Assembly: GCA_946055775.1 (NCBI GenBank) | Contig: CAMGHE010000003.1 | Coordinates: 1 to 41,085 of the forward strand | Direction of reading: 5' to 3' | Source: an uncultured Bacteroidales bacterium | GTDB lineage: Bacteria; Bacteroidota; Bacteroidia; Bacteroidales; Bacteroidaceae | DNA length: 41,085 bases | Shown here: positions 1,036 to 5,194 of the stretch, piece by piece | Layout of the letters: each line of letters opens with the position of its first letter | Position numbering within the stretch: the stretch's first letter is position 1 | Program-made: the position numbers and the translations under genes | The notes under the pieces: model-generated | The model's input: the letters and a program-made list of their open reading frames with translations, nothing else | The model's database searches: none | What the model was told of the DNA's origin: nothing

Positions 1036-1368
1036 TCATTTGACTTTAATGGGGTTTCTCTTTTTGCAGTCAAAAAACGATAGGTGCTTCCAATCGGTAC
1101 TTGTGGCCTCTATTACCCTTTTATTGTAAATGTCGTAGAAAAAGATAGTAAGTTGTCCGTTCTCTACTTCCACGCGCCAAATATCAACCAGAAGAAGAAA
1201 TTTGTCTGTAATAGCCTTAATGGCGGCGGCTACGCGCTCATCAATGTTTATTGTAGAGCTAAGAGCTGAGTGGGTGTGAGGGGTTTTGGCCTTGGCTGCA
1301 TTTGTTTGGGCATTAAGGATAGCGGCGGAAGCCGTCTTGGATTGGGTGGTTTGCATTGTAGCGTTCAT
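1036..1368 (-). CDS. Hypothetical accessory protein
   Basis: A 110-residue protein, the first gene of the minus-strand trio running toward the window join. The first 40 residues are Ala/Thr/Lys-rich and probably disordered; residues 45-110 look folded, with a beta-rich stretch (VDIWRVEVENGQLTIFFYDI). A second ATG 12 bases downstream is a possible alternative start. No family recognised. The region upstream (1369-1581) is intergenic and carries no clear consensus promoter on this strand. Confidence 0.65.
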   Translation of the reverse strand: MNATMQTTQSKTASAAILNAQTNAAKAKTPHTHSALSSTINIDERVAAAIKAITDKFLLLVDIWRVEVENGQLTIFFYDIYNKRVIEATSTDWKHLSFFDCKKRNPIKVK

Positions 1369-1581
1369 TTTGTTTCAATTTTTAAGAGTTCATTGCGTCG
1401 CTTGTCGCTTCGCGGTACGTTTCGGGGTTTTGATACTGCTTAAAGAGGGAGGACAGGGCAGACCGTGCAAGGGAGGATGTCCGCCATTTTTTCAGTCCCC
1501 GGGCCTTGAAAAGTTTTTTGAGCCTGTGAGGAAAAGTTTTTGAAAAAATCGTGGAACCCCTTGCAGGGGATGCCCCCTCCC
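1369..1581. other. Intergenic stretch before the structured-RNA promoter
   Basis: There is no convincing gene on either strand. It holds T/A-rich runs and a short GC hairpin (ccccttgcagggg, about 1556-1568) just ahead of the plus-strand promoter. The minus-strand frames crossing it have no codon-usage or motif support. Confidence 0.5.
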
Positions 1582-1589
1582 TACCTTTG
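1561..1589 (+). promoter_or_regulatory. Bacteroidetes-type promoter for the structured RNA
   Basis: TACCTTTG at 1582-1589 is a perfect match to the Bacteroidetes -7 box TAnnTTTG, and a TTG at 1561-1563 lies at about -33 spacing. The predicted start of transcription is near 1596, pointing into the gene-free structured region. The same box and following GCAG occur at 2647-2657 in front of the next plus-strand gene. Confidence 0.6.
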
Positions 1590-1784
1590 CAGTAGCATAA
1601 ATCCCGGAAAACAGGGCCGTGATGCAGAAAGCGATGTGGAGCCCGCTTAGGAACAAAATGGATGCTACAAGCAAAAGGCAAACCACCCAATCCAAGGCGA
1701 AAAGCCTTCCTCCGCTATCCGCCCAAACAAGTGTAGCCAAGGACGTATAGAATAGATAATACCTGACCAAGAATTGGGCAGGTG

Positions 1785-1849
1785 GCCGCTCTCCCCGAAG
1801 CGTAGCGGAGTGGGGCAACCCGTGCTCAGAGTGGAACGGCGAGCACGTA
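1785..1849 (+). repeat. Structured-RNA module, copy 1
   Basis: A 65-nt unit that aligns without gaps to 2032-2096, with 58 of 65 bases equal by eye. It contains a conserved hairpin (cgtgctc...gagcacg) whose stem is unchanged in both copies while the differences fall mostly outside it. Confidence 0.75.
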
Positions 1850-2031
1850 AACAACTGGCAGGGAACGGCGCAGCGTAGGCGGAGGTGGCGGGAGCACGGA
1901 TAAGAGGATGTGCGAAAATGGCCGGGAATCAGAGCAGGTCTTGCGTGACTTGTCGGCAAGATGTGCTCTCCGGCCGCTTATCCTATTAGCCGTACTCCCG
2001 CGCCGCAGACGTAGCGTAGCCGTTCCCTGCT

Positions 2032-2096
2032 GCCGCTCTCCTCGTAGCGCAGCGGAGTGGGGCTAACCGTGCTCAGAATGGAATGGCGAGCACGTA
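2032..2096 (+). repeat. Structured-RNA module, copy 2
   Basis: Second copy of the 65-nt unit at 1785-1849. The two copies flank a large imperfect inverted repeat (1856-1907 with 1981-2034), so the whole block reads as unit, stem-loop, unit. Confidence 0.75.
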
Positions 2097-2623
2097 GGAA
2101 CTTGACACTCCCTTGCCGGAACGGAGGCGGAGGAGGCAGGCCTGCCGTGGCGGAACTGTGGCGAGGAAGCACATAAGGGGCGGAGAAGAAACGTGTCCCG
2201 GTGTGGTACACACTGGGACTTGTTTCCCGCACGTGCTTCCGCCTCAGTGCAGCCACGTCAGGCCTGCCCCCGGAGCCGTAGTGAAGGCAAGGGTGTGTCC
2301 TACCGCTATGGAGCGCGCGGGGGCCCCGGGGCGTTTGTAAAAACGTCTTGGGCGCGCGCGACATCCCGCCGCAAAAACGCTGGCAATGTGGTCTGAAAGC
2401 CTGTCCGAAATAGTGGATTTATCCCTTTCGGGCGCTCAGAGGCGATAAGACTACATTGCCAGCGTTTTTGCGGCATAGCGCCCGCAGTTTCCTGCGGGTA
2501 GAGCGCGAGGGCACCCCACCACTGCCCTACGGAGCGCGAGCCGTTACCCCCGATGCAAAAGCGGAATATGCGCATGGTATAAACGCAATTTTGTCGAATC
2601 CGATAAAATTATCCTTATTTTAT

Positions 2624-2654
2624 TTGGCAATGACCGGACTAATCATTACCTTTG
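2624..2654 (+). promoter_or_regulatory. Promoter of the plus-strand two-gene cassette
   Basis: TACCTTTG at 2647-2654 matches TAnnTTTG perfectly. A TTG near 2624-2626 gives the expected -33 spacing. The start codon of the next gene follows at 2689, so the leader would be about 25-30 nt. The surrounding 2580-2690 stretch is AT-rich compared with the rest of the genome. Confidence 0.7.
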
Positions 2655-2688
2655 CAGCAGATAACCTAACCCTTAATACAATATCATT

Positions 2689-3027
2689 ATGAAAACCGAG
2701 GACGTAAAATTTGTAACAGTCAGCACCGACACATACAAAGTGTTTGTCGCCTTAAAGAATGGCAAAAACGTTATGAGATATTTTGATCGTGAAGACACCC
2801 TTGCTGCAAACAGAACCCTCAGAGAGGGTGGCCACGCCGCGCGTGTGGAGTTCGTCGTCAACATGATTAACAAGAAGTACATGAGATACGAGGAGCCCAA
2901 GCCAGCGCCTATGTGTTATGAGGACGAGCGCTTCTTTTGGCTAAAACATTTGAAAGATAACGGCCTGTCTCTTACAGACGAGGAAGAAGAAGAATATAAG
3001 CGCCTTCTTGATTGGGATGGATGGTGA
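2689..3027 (+). CDS. Hypothetical protein, first gene of moron-like cassette
   Basis: A 112-residue, acidic-tailed protein (four consecutive Glu near residues 98-102). I recognise no family. It has its own promoter and is followed 52 bases later by an XRE-family regulator on the same strand, an arrangement seen in toxin-antitoxin and other small regulated prophage cassettes. No ribonuclease or kinase toxin motif is evident, so the toxin idea rests on context only. Both genes run opposite to the flanking phage operons, which suggests independent expression from the prophage. Confidence 0.7.
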   Translation: MKTEDVKFVTVSTDTYKVFVALKNGKNVMRYFDREDTLAANRTLREGGHAARVEFVVNMINKKYMRYEEPKPAPMCYEDERFFWLKHLKDNGLSLTDEEEEEYKRLLDWDGW

Positions 3028-3079
3028 AATATGGAAGATAATAAACGCGAAAAGATAACAAGAGAAACAAGAGAATACA

Positions 3080-3523
3080 ATGGATAACGCAGAAAGATTT
3101 AGCATACAGCGCGCCGAGAAGCCCGGCTACTGGGAGTGCACGGACAAGGAGCACGGGATAAAAATCACGTTCAAGGAGCACAACTTCAACGGCTCACAGG
3201 AGGTGACGATACTTGGCGGAGATACTTTCGCCAGCATGGAGGAGGCCATGGGCGTGGCGAAGGCGCTGCGCGAAATGACCGATTGGCTATGCCGCGAGCA
3301 CAACAAGAAGTGTATGCCCGACCTCCAGGCTATGCGCGAGAGGATGGGCAAGGACATCCGGGCCATCCGCATGGAGCGCGGCATGAGCCAGACGGATTTG
3401 GCTGCGGCTGCGGGGATAACGATTGCCAACCTCAGCCGTATCGAGGCTGGAAAATTCTCGGTCGGCTTGGACATCCTCAACAAAATTGCCATAGCCCTCG
3501 GGGTGACGCTCAAAATGGAATAA
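3080..3523 (+). CDS. XRE-family helix-turn-helix regulator
   Basis: A 147-residue protein. Residues 1-80 form a separate unknown domain. Residues about 92-147 are a classic Cro/C1-type HTH: IRAIRMERGMSQTDLA, then AGITIANLSRIEAGK and a closing helix (LNKIAIALGV). This domain binds operator DNA and is typical of antitoxins and small repressors. It probably autoregulates the promoter at 2647 together with its partner gene. A bidirectional hairpin at 3544-3580 ends the cassette. Confidence 0.85.
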   Translation: MDNAERFSIQRAEKPGYWECTDKEHGIKITFKEHNFNGSQEVTILGGDTFASMEEAMGVAKALREMTDWLCREHNKKCMPDLQAMRERMGKDIRAIRMERGMSQTDLAAAAGITIANLSRIEAGKFSVGLDILNKIAIALGVTLKME

Positions 3524-3543
3524 GGGGCGACGGCAAACAACGA

Positions 3544-3580
3544 GAAGGGGCGTATCAGAATCCATCTGGTACGCCCCTTC
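3544..3580. terminator. Bidirectional terminator between convergent genes
   Basis: A strong hairpin with arms gaaggggcgta and tacgccccttc plus an inner cAGA/TCTg pairing. It lies between the stop of the plus-strand XRE gene (3523) and the stop of the minus-strand large terminase (3596), exactly where transcription from both sides must end. Confidence 0.75.
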
Positions 3581-3595
3581 ATCATGAGCAAATCC

Positions 3596-5194
3596 CTACC
3601 AGTCGCTGGTGACGGGATAGACGACGCCATCCTGCGGGAACCGCTCGCAACCGATATACAGCGTGTCGAAGGCGTCGGAGAAGTCGGTGCGCTCCTCCAG
3701 CCGGCTCTCCTCCGTCTCGGGCGTCTTCTCGAGGCGTTTGTCCTTGTGGCCATTATAGACGCCTGCGGTCTGCACCGAGATAAGGAGGCTCTCGTTATTC
3801 TGCTCGTTAAAGAAAGGCATGAGGCGTGCCCGGCCGTCAAAGCCGCGGTTGATGAGCAGCTGCTTCTCGAGGTGGCCCATGGGGCGGCCGATAAACACCG
3901 GGCGGACAAGCCAGCCGTGCGCCTCGAGTTCGTGGATGATTACCCAGCGGAAGTCCTCGTTGTTCACGGCGTAGTTACTGCCGAGCGCCGTGCTGTCGAA
4001 GTAGAAGATGACCTCCTTATTGGGGAAAGTGTAATAGTAGCGGCAGAAGTCCTGGATGAGGCCTTGAAGTTTCCGCTCGTATTTGACGTAAAACGATTTC
4101 ACCACGTTGAGCCGGCGCTGCGCCTCGTCGGTCTGCCCTACGACAAGGCAGTTGATGTTGGCGTTGTAGTCGAACGCGATGCACAGCGGCTTGTGCTTCT
4201 GCAAATCTGCGTCGAGGCGGCTGTCCACATTGGTGAGGCGTTCCGTGTCGTAGCCAAGAGAGTCGAGGTAGTGAAAGTCGGTCGCGTTGTAGCGGTGCGA
4301 GGGTTTCATCGAGGAGTAAAATCCGTCCTTGATGATGTCCACGGGCAGGCAGAGGATGGAAGTGCGGAACTCGATCGGCGGCAGGTCGCGCTTCATCTGG
4401 CGGAACCATGCCTCGCCAAGCACCTCTATGTTGGTCAGCGAAGAATACCTGCCGAAGAATGTAGCGTGCCGCCTGACCTTCGCGAGGAGGTCCGTCACGT
4501 CTTGCAGCCGGCGGCGGAGGTAGTAGGTCGGCGTCTCGGCTATGGCGTCCTTCAAATGCCACTGTTCAGCCAGCAGCGCCCTGATGCAGGACAGCGTCTC
4601 GGGGTCGCACTCTTTCTCGTACTGGAGGAACCACGAGCCCTTTTTGGTCACGGGCATGTCGGACGTAATGAGCATCCCGTGGTGGAAGGGCAGGTGACCG
4701 AACTCCGCCACCTGTCCGCGGTTGGCGGGGAACGTCTCGCTTTTCAGTTGTTCGTAGTCGATATATTTCGCCTCGTCGATGTCGAGAAAGTCGAACGATT
4801 TGGAGTTTGAAGTACCGCTGCGGTCCTGCGAGATAATCTGCCCTATTGCGCCGGTGTAGAAGGAAATGATGTTGTCGTAGTTCTCGGGTTTGTAGATGGG
4901 GTCAGGCCATTTCAGTTCCTTTGGCGGCTTCTGACCCACCACCCAATGCACGCCGCGCTTATACCCCCAATTTTCCCAATGGGCGAACATGGACGGCAGC
5001 GTGTTGGTCAGTGCGCGCTTCGCGTTCGGCGCGACAAAGGCGGTCGTCGAGCGCGGCATCATCTGAAAATTCTCCAACACGAAGGCGGCGTGCAGCAGTC
5101 CCTTGCCTGTGCCGCGCCCTGCACATATCACCGTCTTGTTAGCACGGTAGAGGGCTGCCTCCCGTTGCATCTGGTTGAAGTATATTTTTGCCAT
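3596..5194 (-). CDS. terL: Terminase large subunit (TerL)
   Basis: A 532-residue DNA-packaging motor with ATPase and nuclease halves. Walker A is GRGTGKG at residues 26-32; Walker B is FLDIDE at 136-141. The RNase H-like nuclease half carries acidic residues in AFDYNAN (D342), FYFDS (D400) and a C-terminal FSDAFD cluster (504-510), the usual three-acid pattern. It would cut concatemers and pump DNA through the portal encoded at 22749. Unusually it is the last gene of the early operon, 33 bases after a small unknown gene, rather than next to portal and capsid genes. Confidence 0.93.
   Translation of the reverse strand: MAKIYFNQMQREAALYRANKTVICAGRGTGKGLLHAAFVLENFQMMPRSTTAFVAPNAKRALTNTLPSMFAHWENWGYKRGVHWVVGQKPPKELKWPDPIYKPENYDNIISFYTGAIGQIISQDRSGTSNSKSFDFLDIDEAKYIDYEQLKSETFPANRGQVAEFGHLPFHHGMLITSDMPVTKKGSWFLQYEKECDPETLSCIRALLAEQWHLKDAIAETPTYYLRRRLQDVTDLLAKVRRHATFFGRYSSLTNIEVLGEAWFRQMKRDLPPIEFRTSILCLPVDIIKDGFYSSMKPSHRYNATDFHYLDSLGYDTERLTNVDSRLDADLQKHKPLCIAFDYNANINCLVVGQTDEAQRRLNVVKSFYVKYERKLQGLIQDFCRYYYTFPNKEVIFYFDSTALGSNYAVNNEDFRWVIIHELEAHGWLVRPVFIGRPMGHLEKQLLINRGFDGRARLMPFFNEQNNESLLISVQTAGVYNGHKDKRLEKTPETEESRLEERTDFSDAFDTLYIGCERFPQDGVVYPVTSDW

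Follow-up and report, generated by a model that had tools for sequence, protein, structure and literature searches.

A probable new family of structured RNAs at a fixed place in the genomes of Bacteroidales phages

What occupies the 1.3 kb without a convincing gene that, in a Bacteroidales phage region, separate the gene 1036-1368 (minus strand) from a two-gene cassette at 2689-3523 (plus strand)? The window analysed here (41,085 nucleotides) corresponds to contig 3 of the draft genome G000 and carries phage genes for a primase, tape measure, tail, head-maturation protease and integrase; ARAGORN finds no tRNA genes across these 41 kb. The gene 1036-1368 is the first of a divergent operon; its product has no family match in protein-family library searches, and neither this gene nor 475-990 retrieved viral relatives when used as a query. 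The cassette together with its promoter (2647-3523, plus strand; genes 2689-3027 and 3080-3523) lies between the element discussed below and the gene of the terminase large subunit TerL (3596-5194, minus strand), which is convergent to the element. One of the two cassette genes encodes an HTH protein (3080-3523), and the cassette promoter is a second TACCTTTGCA promoter. TerL was assigned from the annotation of relatives (phage records label some of them, at 25-35% identity, as terminase) and from Walker-type motifs recognized by eye; no PHROG, Pfam or NCBIfam match was found at the thresholds used. Relatives of this TerL are plentiful in viral contigs, yet it has no library match, which marks a blind spot of PHROG, Pfam and NCBIfam.

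The original prediction placed a large structured element at 1582-2540, and folding bears this out: on the plus strand the minimum free energy (MFE) is -487.2 kcal/mol against a mean of -380.05 (sd 10.7) for 20 dinucleotide shuffles, none of which reached the native value (z -10.0). The region had also been described as gene-free, and no convincing gene was found in it. ORFs of 67-155 aa traverse it in several frames; nevertheless, a Pfam search of seven of them gave nothing above the cut-off (one match was sub-threshold), and 10 of the 11 gaps between window positions 1785-2543 and the closest relative are not multiples of 3. On these two grounds a protein gene or conserved protein frame through the element is rejected. 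As to the known large phage RNAs (ROOL, GOLLD, OLE) or other Rfam families, the size, phage location and elaborate folding would suit them, but no Rfam model, those of ROOL, GOLLD and OLE included, reaches its gathering score in the window or in eight relatives, and the nine matches obtained in the window at relaxed E all lie far below that score and mostly belong to microRNA hairpin models. Membership in a known class is refuted at the sensitivity of Rfam and thus highly improbable.

The order on the plus strand is promoter, inverted-copy leader, two tandem units, two more hairpins and a 3' domain that ends near 2573. The promoter (1561-1589), claimed earlier and found as described, consists of TTG at 1561-1563, 18 nt, and TACCTTTG at 1582-1589, and was assigned by the Bacteroidetes promoter consensus; TAnnTTTG occurs at the corresponding place in G051, in G226 and in a subset of other relatives. 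The stretch 1541-1742 is an inverted duplicate of 1290-1494 (blastn 68%, E 2.4e-12; local alignment score 135, best of 200 shuffles 48), and what is copied is the promoter and leader of the adjacent minus-strand gene along with its first codons. At 1658-1750 (plus strand) lies a 30-codon remnant that resembles the start of the protein encoded by 1036-1368 and is probably a decayed copy; judged by eye, its frame is broken in G051. The duplicate stands outside the folded body and the conserved domain reaches at least 2573, so the extent first claimed held as regards a folded element but not as regards its borders.

The folded body, all on the plus strand, starts with the linker of tandem unit 1 (1785-1849, small hairpins, the 65-nt direct repeat D1) and continues with giant hairpin A (1857-2031, ~175 nt, arms 1858-1869/2019-2030 in the fold), the linker of unit 2 (2032-2096) and giant branched hairpin B (2104-2299, arms 2104-2163/2240-2299, 60 nt, 75% complementary). 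Since the two linkers form an 89% direct repeat, the two giant hairpins are tandem units, each composed of a 65-nt linker and a hairpin of ~175-200 nt; the multi-branched arm seen at 2104-2299 by the original prediction does exist as a helix, as one member of this pair. Then come a GC-rich hairpin predicted by folding (2310-2362, ends approximate) and, directly 5' of the core, where the family has its hairpin C, a long hairpin (2368-2474) with arms 2368-2402/2440-2474 of 35 nt that are 89% complementary. The conserved 3' domain (2479-2573, ~95 nt; covariance-model R1 match, 47.8 bits) comprises two hairpins and two conserved segments: H1, CCCGCAG-TTTC-CTGCGGG (2481-2498), recognized by its sequence and by covariation in the family; H2, which follows it and is poor in the window (two of five pairs non-standard); and, from the family alignment, CCCCACCACTGCCCTACG (2514-2531) and GCGGAATATGC (2561-2571).

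A DNA search of 58 genomes of the genus gave three matches, namely G000 itself, G051 and G037. The last was rejected as a homologue, its match stemming from a CRISPR-like array (L010, G037 C42, ~3500-4290); the ~47-nt repeat of this array includes a Bacteroidetes promoter-like GCTACCTTTGCAGTAGC, and the repeat with one spacer gave the 79% match to window positions 1581-1638. G051 harbors a syntenic copy of the element with three giant hairpins against two in the window. The counterpart of hairpin B occurs twice in it, in copies 97.8% identical over 275 nt, which indicates that the units duplicate. A counterpart of the cassette 2647-3523 is not apparent in G051; there the TerL match comes 242 nt after the core. 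Paired and unpaired regions are 71 and 70% identical between the window and G051, with 27 two-sided compensated pairs (9-16 in slid controls) and 66 broken pairs (144-165 in slid controls).

More distant members were reached in two ways. Loci were fetched via relatives of the window's TerL, and many of them share the sequence signature of the element, 3' of TerL and on the opposite strand. Sixteen of 20 located sequences formed alignment A1, used for inspection and RNAalifold, and nine of these 16 were picked for alignment A2 because their helices aligned; RNAalifold on the first MAFFT alignment had missed the hairpins because of misalignment. Covariance model R1 (92 positions, nine training sequences, window and G051 left out) finds 25 members among 90 sources at E<=1e-3, of which 16 are outside the training set, including the window (E 6.8e-10) and G051 (E 3.7e-10); L015, counted among these 16, has the same core as a training sequence. 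According to R1, the order H1-H2-CCCCCACYGCCCTACG-GCGGWATATG is present in the window, itself untrained, with three of five H2 pairs standard. The second retrieval relied on a pattern of the two conserved segments alone and gave 56 stretches of species genomes and 106 matches in viral contigs, 80 of which were fetched; R1 confirms 52 of the 56 (E<=1e-4) and 77 of the 80 (E<=3.2e-6).

Altogether the 3' domain was located in 154 loci, 123 of them distinct, nearly all in Bacteroidales genomes or uncultivated phage contigs, and these are real homologues in Bacteroidales phages. The records of 50 of the 52 confirmed genome loci are titled as Bacteroidales, among which we count Candidatus Sodaliphilus on the assumption that it belongs to this order. 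Two MAG contigs titled Staphylococcus sp. and Oscillospiraceae (L181 and L168) contain the element at E about 1e-14 and are probably mis-binned Bacteroidales phage DNA. The carriers include Bacteroides congonensis, B. mediterraneensis, B. ilei, Segatella maculosa, Hallella multisaccharivorax and Prevotella lacticifex. In samples graded by kinship the element was present in 9/58 genomes of the genus (E<=0.01), 15/349 of the family (E<=0.001) and 1/395 of the phylum (E<=0.001), the latter being the window's own. No INPHARED isolate carries it by blastn with the window and two relatives as queries; in four phage records (TerL 26-35% identical) the ~13.5 kb surrounding TerL gave R1 a best E of 1.4, a search with a 19-base linker pattern yielded no viral relatives, and the first 14.8 kb of MT835542 were left out of the analysis. 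The element is often only some 250-450 nt long overall, judged from promoter distances, with a compact form of about 0.4 kb. What the family conserves is the 3' domain of ~95 nt together with a series of hairpins; the window clade has reached its ~1-kb form through expansion by tandem hairpin units.

Does the family retain pairing, or only sequence? Covariation was assessed in 95 representatives (<93% identity) of the 123 distinct loci from the 154 matches, a set that replaced an earlier 95 taken by score. In H1 and H2, 80% of the cells form standard pairs (52% in shuffles), 292 cells are compensated on both sides (106 in shuffles) and the covariation score is 0.505 (0.142 shuffled, at most 0.086 slid), all from an alignment that was fitted to the model and hence leans towards it. 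All 12 base pairs show some two-sided change, which is not above the shuffles (mean 10.9; 101 of 500 reach 12). In a model-free check, a Watson-Crick stem of score >=6 stands just 5' of the conserved segment in 44 of the 76 representatives retrieved by pattern (5.6 expected). At the position of hairpin C a stem score >=7 was reached in 62/93 representatives (5.8 expected), against 6/63 control stretches 1.7 kb upstream. The hairpins upstream of the 3' domain retain pairing despite sequence change.

TerL was found in 89 of the 123 distinct loci (tblastn, E<=1e-4), in 87 of them 3' of the element and on the opposite strand, and in L094 and L023 on the same strand and 5'. Those 87 genes lie within 520 nt (35 loci), at 0.5-4 kb (51) or further away (one). 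Among the 34 loci without TerL, 28 have less than 3.6 kb on that side; six have 4.8-7.6 kb and still show no TerL match, so that the adjacency is not absolute, and three of these six show a primase match instead. Homologues of window genes in family loci are on the opposite strand in a ratio of 524:12, the window's own genes being counted. The element keeps a constant position in the phage genome, where it stands back to back with the next operon's promoter and is convergent to the operon of the terminase.

Among the 80 viral loci fetched via TerL, the element occurs in 16 of 24 whose TerL is at least 53% identical and in none of 56 whose TerL is at most 47% identical (E<=1e-3 in both cases); in five of the eight element-less loci of the former group, the sequence extends for 0 to 1.2 kb on that side of TerL. 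The element goes with one terminase lineage. A broader model, R2, suggests that the family may reach into more distant TerL lineages, since L034-L036 (one phage type, E 0.005), L024 (E 0.016) and L042 (E 0.46) give weak matches where the element would be expected and on the expected strand; such a wider range is only suggested, because matches of comparable E also fall away from the expected place (L052, 0.007; L064, 0.036). A pattern match was also observed in a Deltaproteobacteria MAG (L150, 2129-2218; R1 E 0.067, R2 E 7e-4).

Which strand is transcribed, if any? The strand, promoter and stem tests were run on 86-94 representatives with enough flanking sequence. In ungapped strong stems GU exceeds AC at each of the 12 settings (4:0 to 134:81); the strongest setting is 52:11 in 145 stems (p 1.7e-7) and the weakest has p 0.12. 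Folds computed without GU give a weak excess (84:62, 47:33 and 22:9 by flank length; 23:12, 12:3 and 4:1 for RNase P), and in the aligned helices the ratios are 25:16 (H1) and 9:4 (H2), with no excess in flanked cells of H1/H2 (6:6). Raw MFE is better on the minus strand in 67 of 92 loci, a base-composition effect according to the shuffle control; the composition-corrected MFE is better on the plus strand in 57 of 92 (p 0.0016; 23/28 in the RNase P control). GNRA loops number 17 on the plus and 8 on the minus strand, which is not significant (p 0.11). The original prediction took the G-U closures as favouring the plus strand; the family data do favour it, while the closures in the window itself do not reveal the strand, its single mismatches at 1785-2475 being two GU against two AC. 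Six window-clade loci have no GU excess (16:22), therefore the window alone leaves the strand unsettled.

The transcription signals around the element frame it on the minus strand. An intrinsic terminator of that strand lies between TerL and the element in 14 of the 26 representatives with TerL within 520 nt (1.9 expected), whereas none of these 26 close loci has a plus-strand terminator there. At the other side, near the 5' end of the element, a minus-strand TAnnTTTG pointing away is found in 65/86 (chance 12), and in the 76 of 95 representatives with a match, the median distance between this promoter of the next operon and the core is 256 nt. Judged from these signals, the element looks insulated on the minus strand, which leaves a plus-strand RNA or untranscribed DNA. 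Could the element belong to the minus-strand transcript of the terL operon, as its 3' untranslated region or as an RNA processed from it? TerL does lie upstream on the minus strand in 87/89 loci; yet the terminators stop its operon before the element in 14/26 close loci, minus promoters are not enriched on the TerL side (8/88, chance 7), the GU bias is the opposite one, and a gap of 0.5-4 kb precedes the element in 51/87 loci. We regard such an origin as very unlikely.

As for untranscribed DNA, the pairing could reflect inverted repeats of a cos or pac site, an origin, a recombination site or a promoter-control element. The frequent proximity to TerL, the position between a minus-strand terminator and a minus-strand promoter, the weak or nil GU excess in several tests and the fact that no plus promoter is detectable in most loci are what one would expect in this case. 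However, GU exceeds AC in strong stems at every setting and the corrected energy bias is strand-specific, while TerL is 0.5-4 kb away in 51/87 loci, and we consider a DNA-level element unlikely. A plus-strand RNA is the favoured reading, and on the stem, energy and terminator data quite a probable one.

A plain plus-strand TAnnTTTG 180-520 nt upstream is seen in 13/86 representatives, which is at chance level (9.3 expected). The strict plus promoters are enriched, though few: TAnnTTTGCA in 7/86 (0.6 expected) and promoters with a TTG box in 10/86 (0.9 expected). A clear plus promoter is present in the window clade and in a Bacteroides/Prevotella subset, and there the leaders of the two strands duplicate each other in inverted orientation: of 17 related loci, 16 beat all 200 mononucleotide shuffles, L037 passing by one point and L014 falling below. 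Upstream of the minus TAnnTTTG promoter, by ~35-50 nt, inspection by eye revealed a recurrent palindrome, GTCTGCAGAC, in L164, L174, L184, L205 and similar loci, and in other clades a GTCTTTTTA box at the same position; both are possibly a phage late-promoter operator.

Transcription of the proposed RNA in the window would start near 1596, from a promoter that is part of the inverted copy of the neighbouring operon's promoter and leader, and the twin leaders lead us to infer that the RNA and the divergent operon are co-expressed. This arrangement would also suit an RNA with a regulatory or decoy function that is induced along with the next operon and titrates, by its tandem hairpins, an RNA-binding protein or a nuclease of host or phage, or a divergent transcription that tunes the operon. 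Besides the twin inverted leaders, it would explain the back-to-back position relative to the next operon's promoter (65/86) at a median of 256 nt from the core, as well as the tandem, nearly identical hairpin units of varying copy number. What is best conserved, however, is the single 3' domain and not the repeated units, and no candidate partner was found; complementarity of the conserved segments to the 16S and 23S rRNA of one same-genus genome does not exceed that of shuffled motifs, so rRNA pairing was rejected as being at chance level. We hold a regulatory or decoy role to be possible, although doubtful.

We suppose, with somewhat better than even confidence, that the element belongs to an undescribed family of structured phage RNAs transcribed from the plus strand, for which a ribonucleoprotein role is proposed. 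The RNA would act in trans, as a ribonucleoprotein, during virion production, its conserved 3' domain docking a protein of this phage lineage; this function is put forward tentatively, as less likely than not. The first candidates for the docking partner would be terminase and portal, since TerL is the most constant neighbour of the element, and the RNA would then serve the packaging motor in the manner of phi29 pRNA; the argument for packaging comes entirely from the gene neighbourhood. Bulk, stability or extra binding sites would come from the variable hairpins of the 5' part, which are duplicated in the window clade. In its most far-reaching form, which seems unlikely to us, the proposal would imply a second, independently evolved packaging- or assembly-motor RNA with a conserved docking domain at its 3' end and a modular, expanding array of long hairpins, lineage-wide in a large group of temperate Bacteroidales tailed phages.

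Phi29 pRNA binds the prohead or portal as a ring and is required for packaging, and Rfam includes a pRNA family. Like it, the element is a structured RNA candidate of a phage lineage, and the association with a packaging gene suggests an analogy; in contrast to pRNA, it has no Rfam match, and the neighbouring terminase reads as a canonical TerL. To our knowledge, large structured phage RNAs are few and mostly without known function. ROOL and GOLLD are characterised by RNA-only nanocages and often sit close to tRNA genes of phages. ROOL is described as a large multi-hairpin RNA of phages and prophages, of unknown function and frequently adjoining tRNA islands, and GOLLD as a phage RNA with a conserved 3' and a less conserved 5' region; Rfam profiles of ROOL, GOLLD and OLE are mentioned in the same source (PMC12286853). 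The element resembles ROOL in being large, rich in hairpins and phage- or prophage-borne, and GOLLD in its phage setting and in the contrast between a conserved 3' and a less conserved 5' region. It differs from both in having neither an Rfam match nor tRNA genes (none in the window; none by ARAGORN in 60 family loci of 4-18 kb), and from ROOL also in that its 3' domain is short and conserved, its 5' part variable and its occurrence tied to one terminase lineage. The original prediction of a new class akin to ROOL and GOLLD stands in that no Rfam family fits and homologues covary, and two of the outcomes named as refuting it, missing covariation and a protein frame conserved through the region, did not occur; it has to be narrowed in that the conserved part is a 3' domain of ~95 nt and that the setting is unlike theirs, given the missing tRNA genes and the tie to one terminase lineage.

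The survey of Fremin and Bhatt (2021), deposited as PMC8040213, is the other work to be compared. It lists thousands of short candidate structured RNAs of human microbiomes, the intergenic ones of 27-219 bp, including HMP2_4078, a Bacteroidetes phage-associated candidate of 109 bp that neighbours D5 N-terminal and phage integrase domains, and the word "terminase" is absent from its main text (PMC8040213). Some of these candidates are likewise short and associated with Bacteroidetes phages, and they may include part of the 3' domain. The literature considered gave no account of an RNA of this kind. The element is most likely a new family of structured phage RNAs, distinct from ROOL and GOLLD, with a function that is only inferred.

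The element is widespread in Bacteroidales phages, and its small conserved core has an easily searched signature. Work on its expression, deletion and structure is directly possible because it occurs in the genomes of named species. If a role in packaging or in late gene control proves true, major gut phages would turn out to use a new step that depends on RNA.
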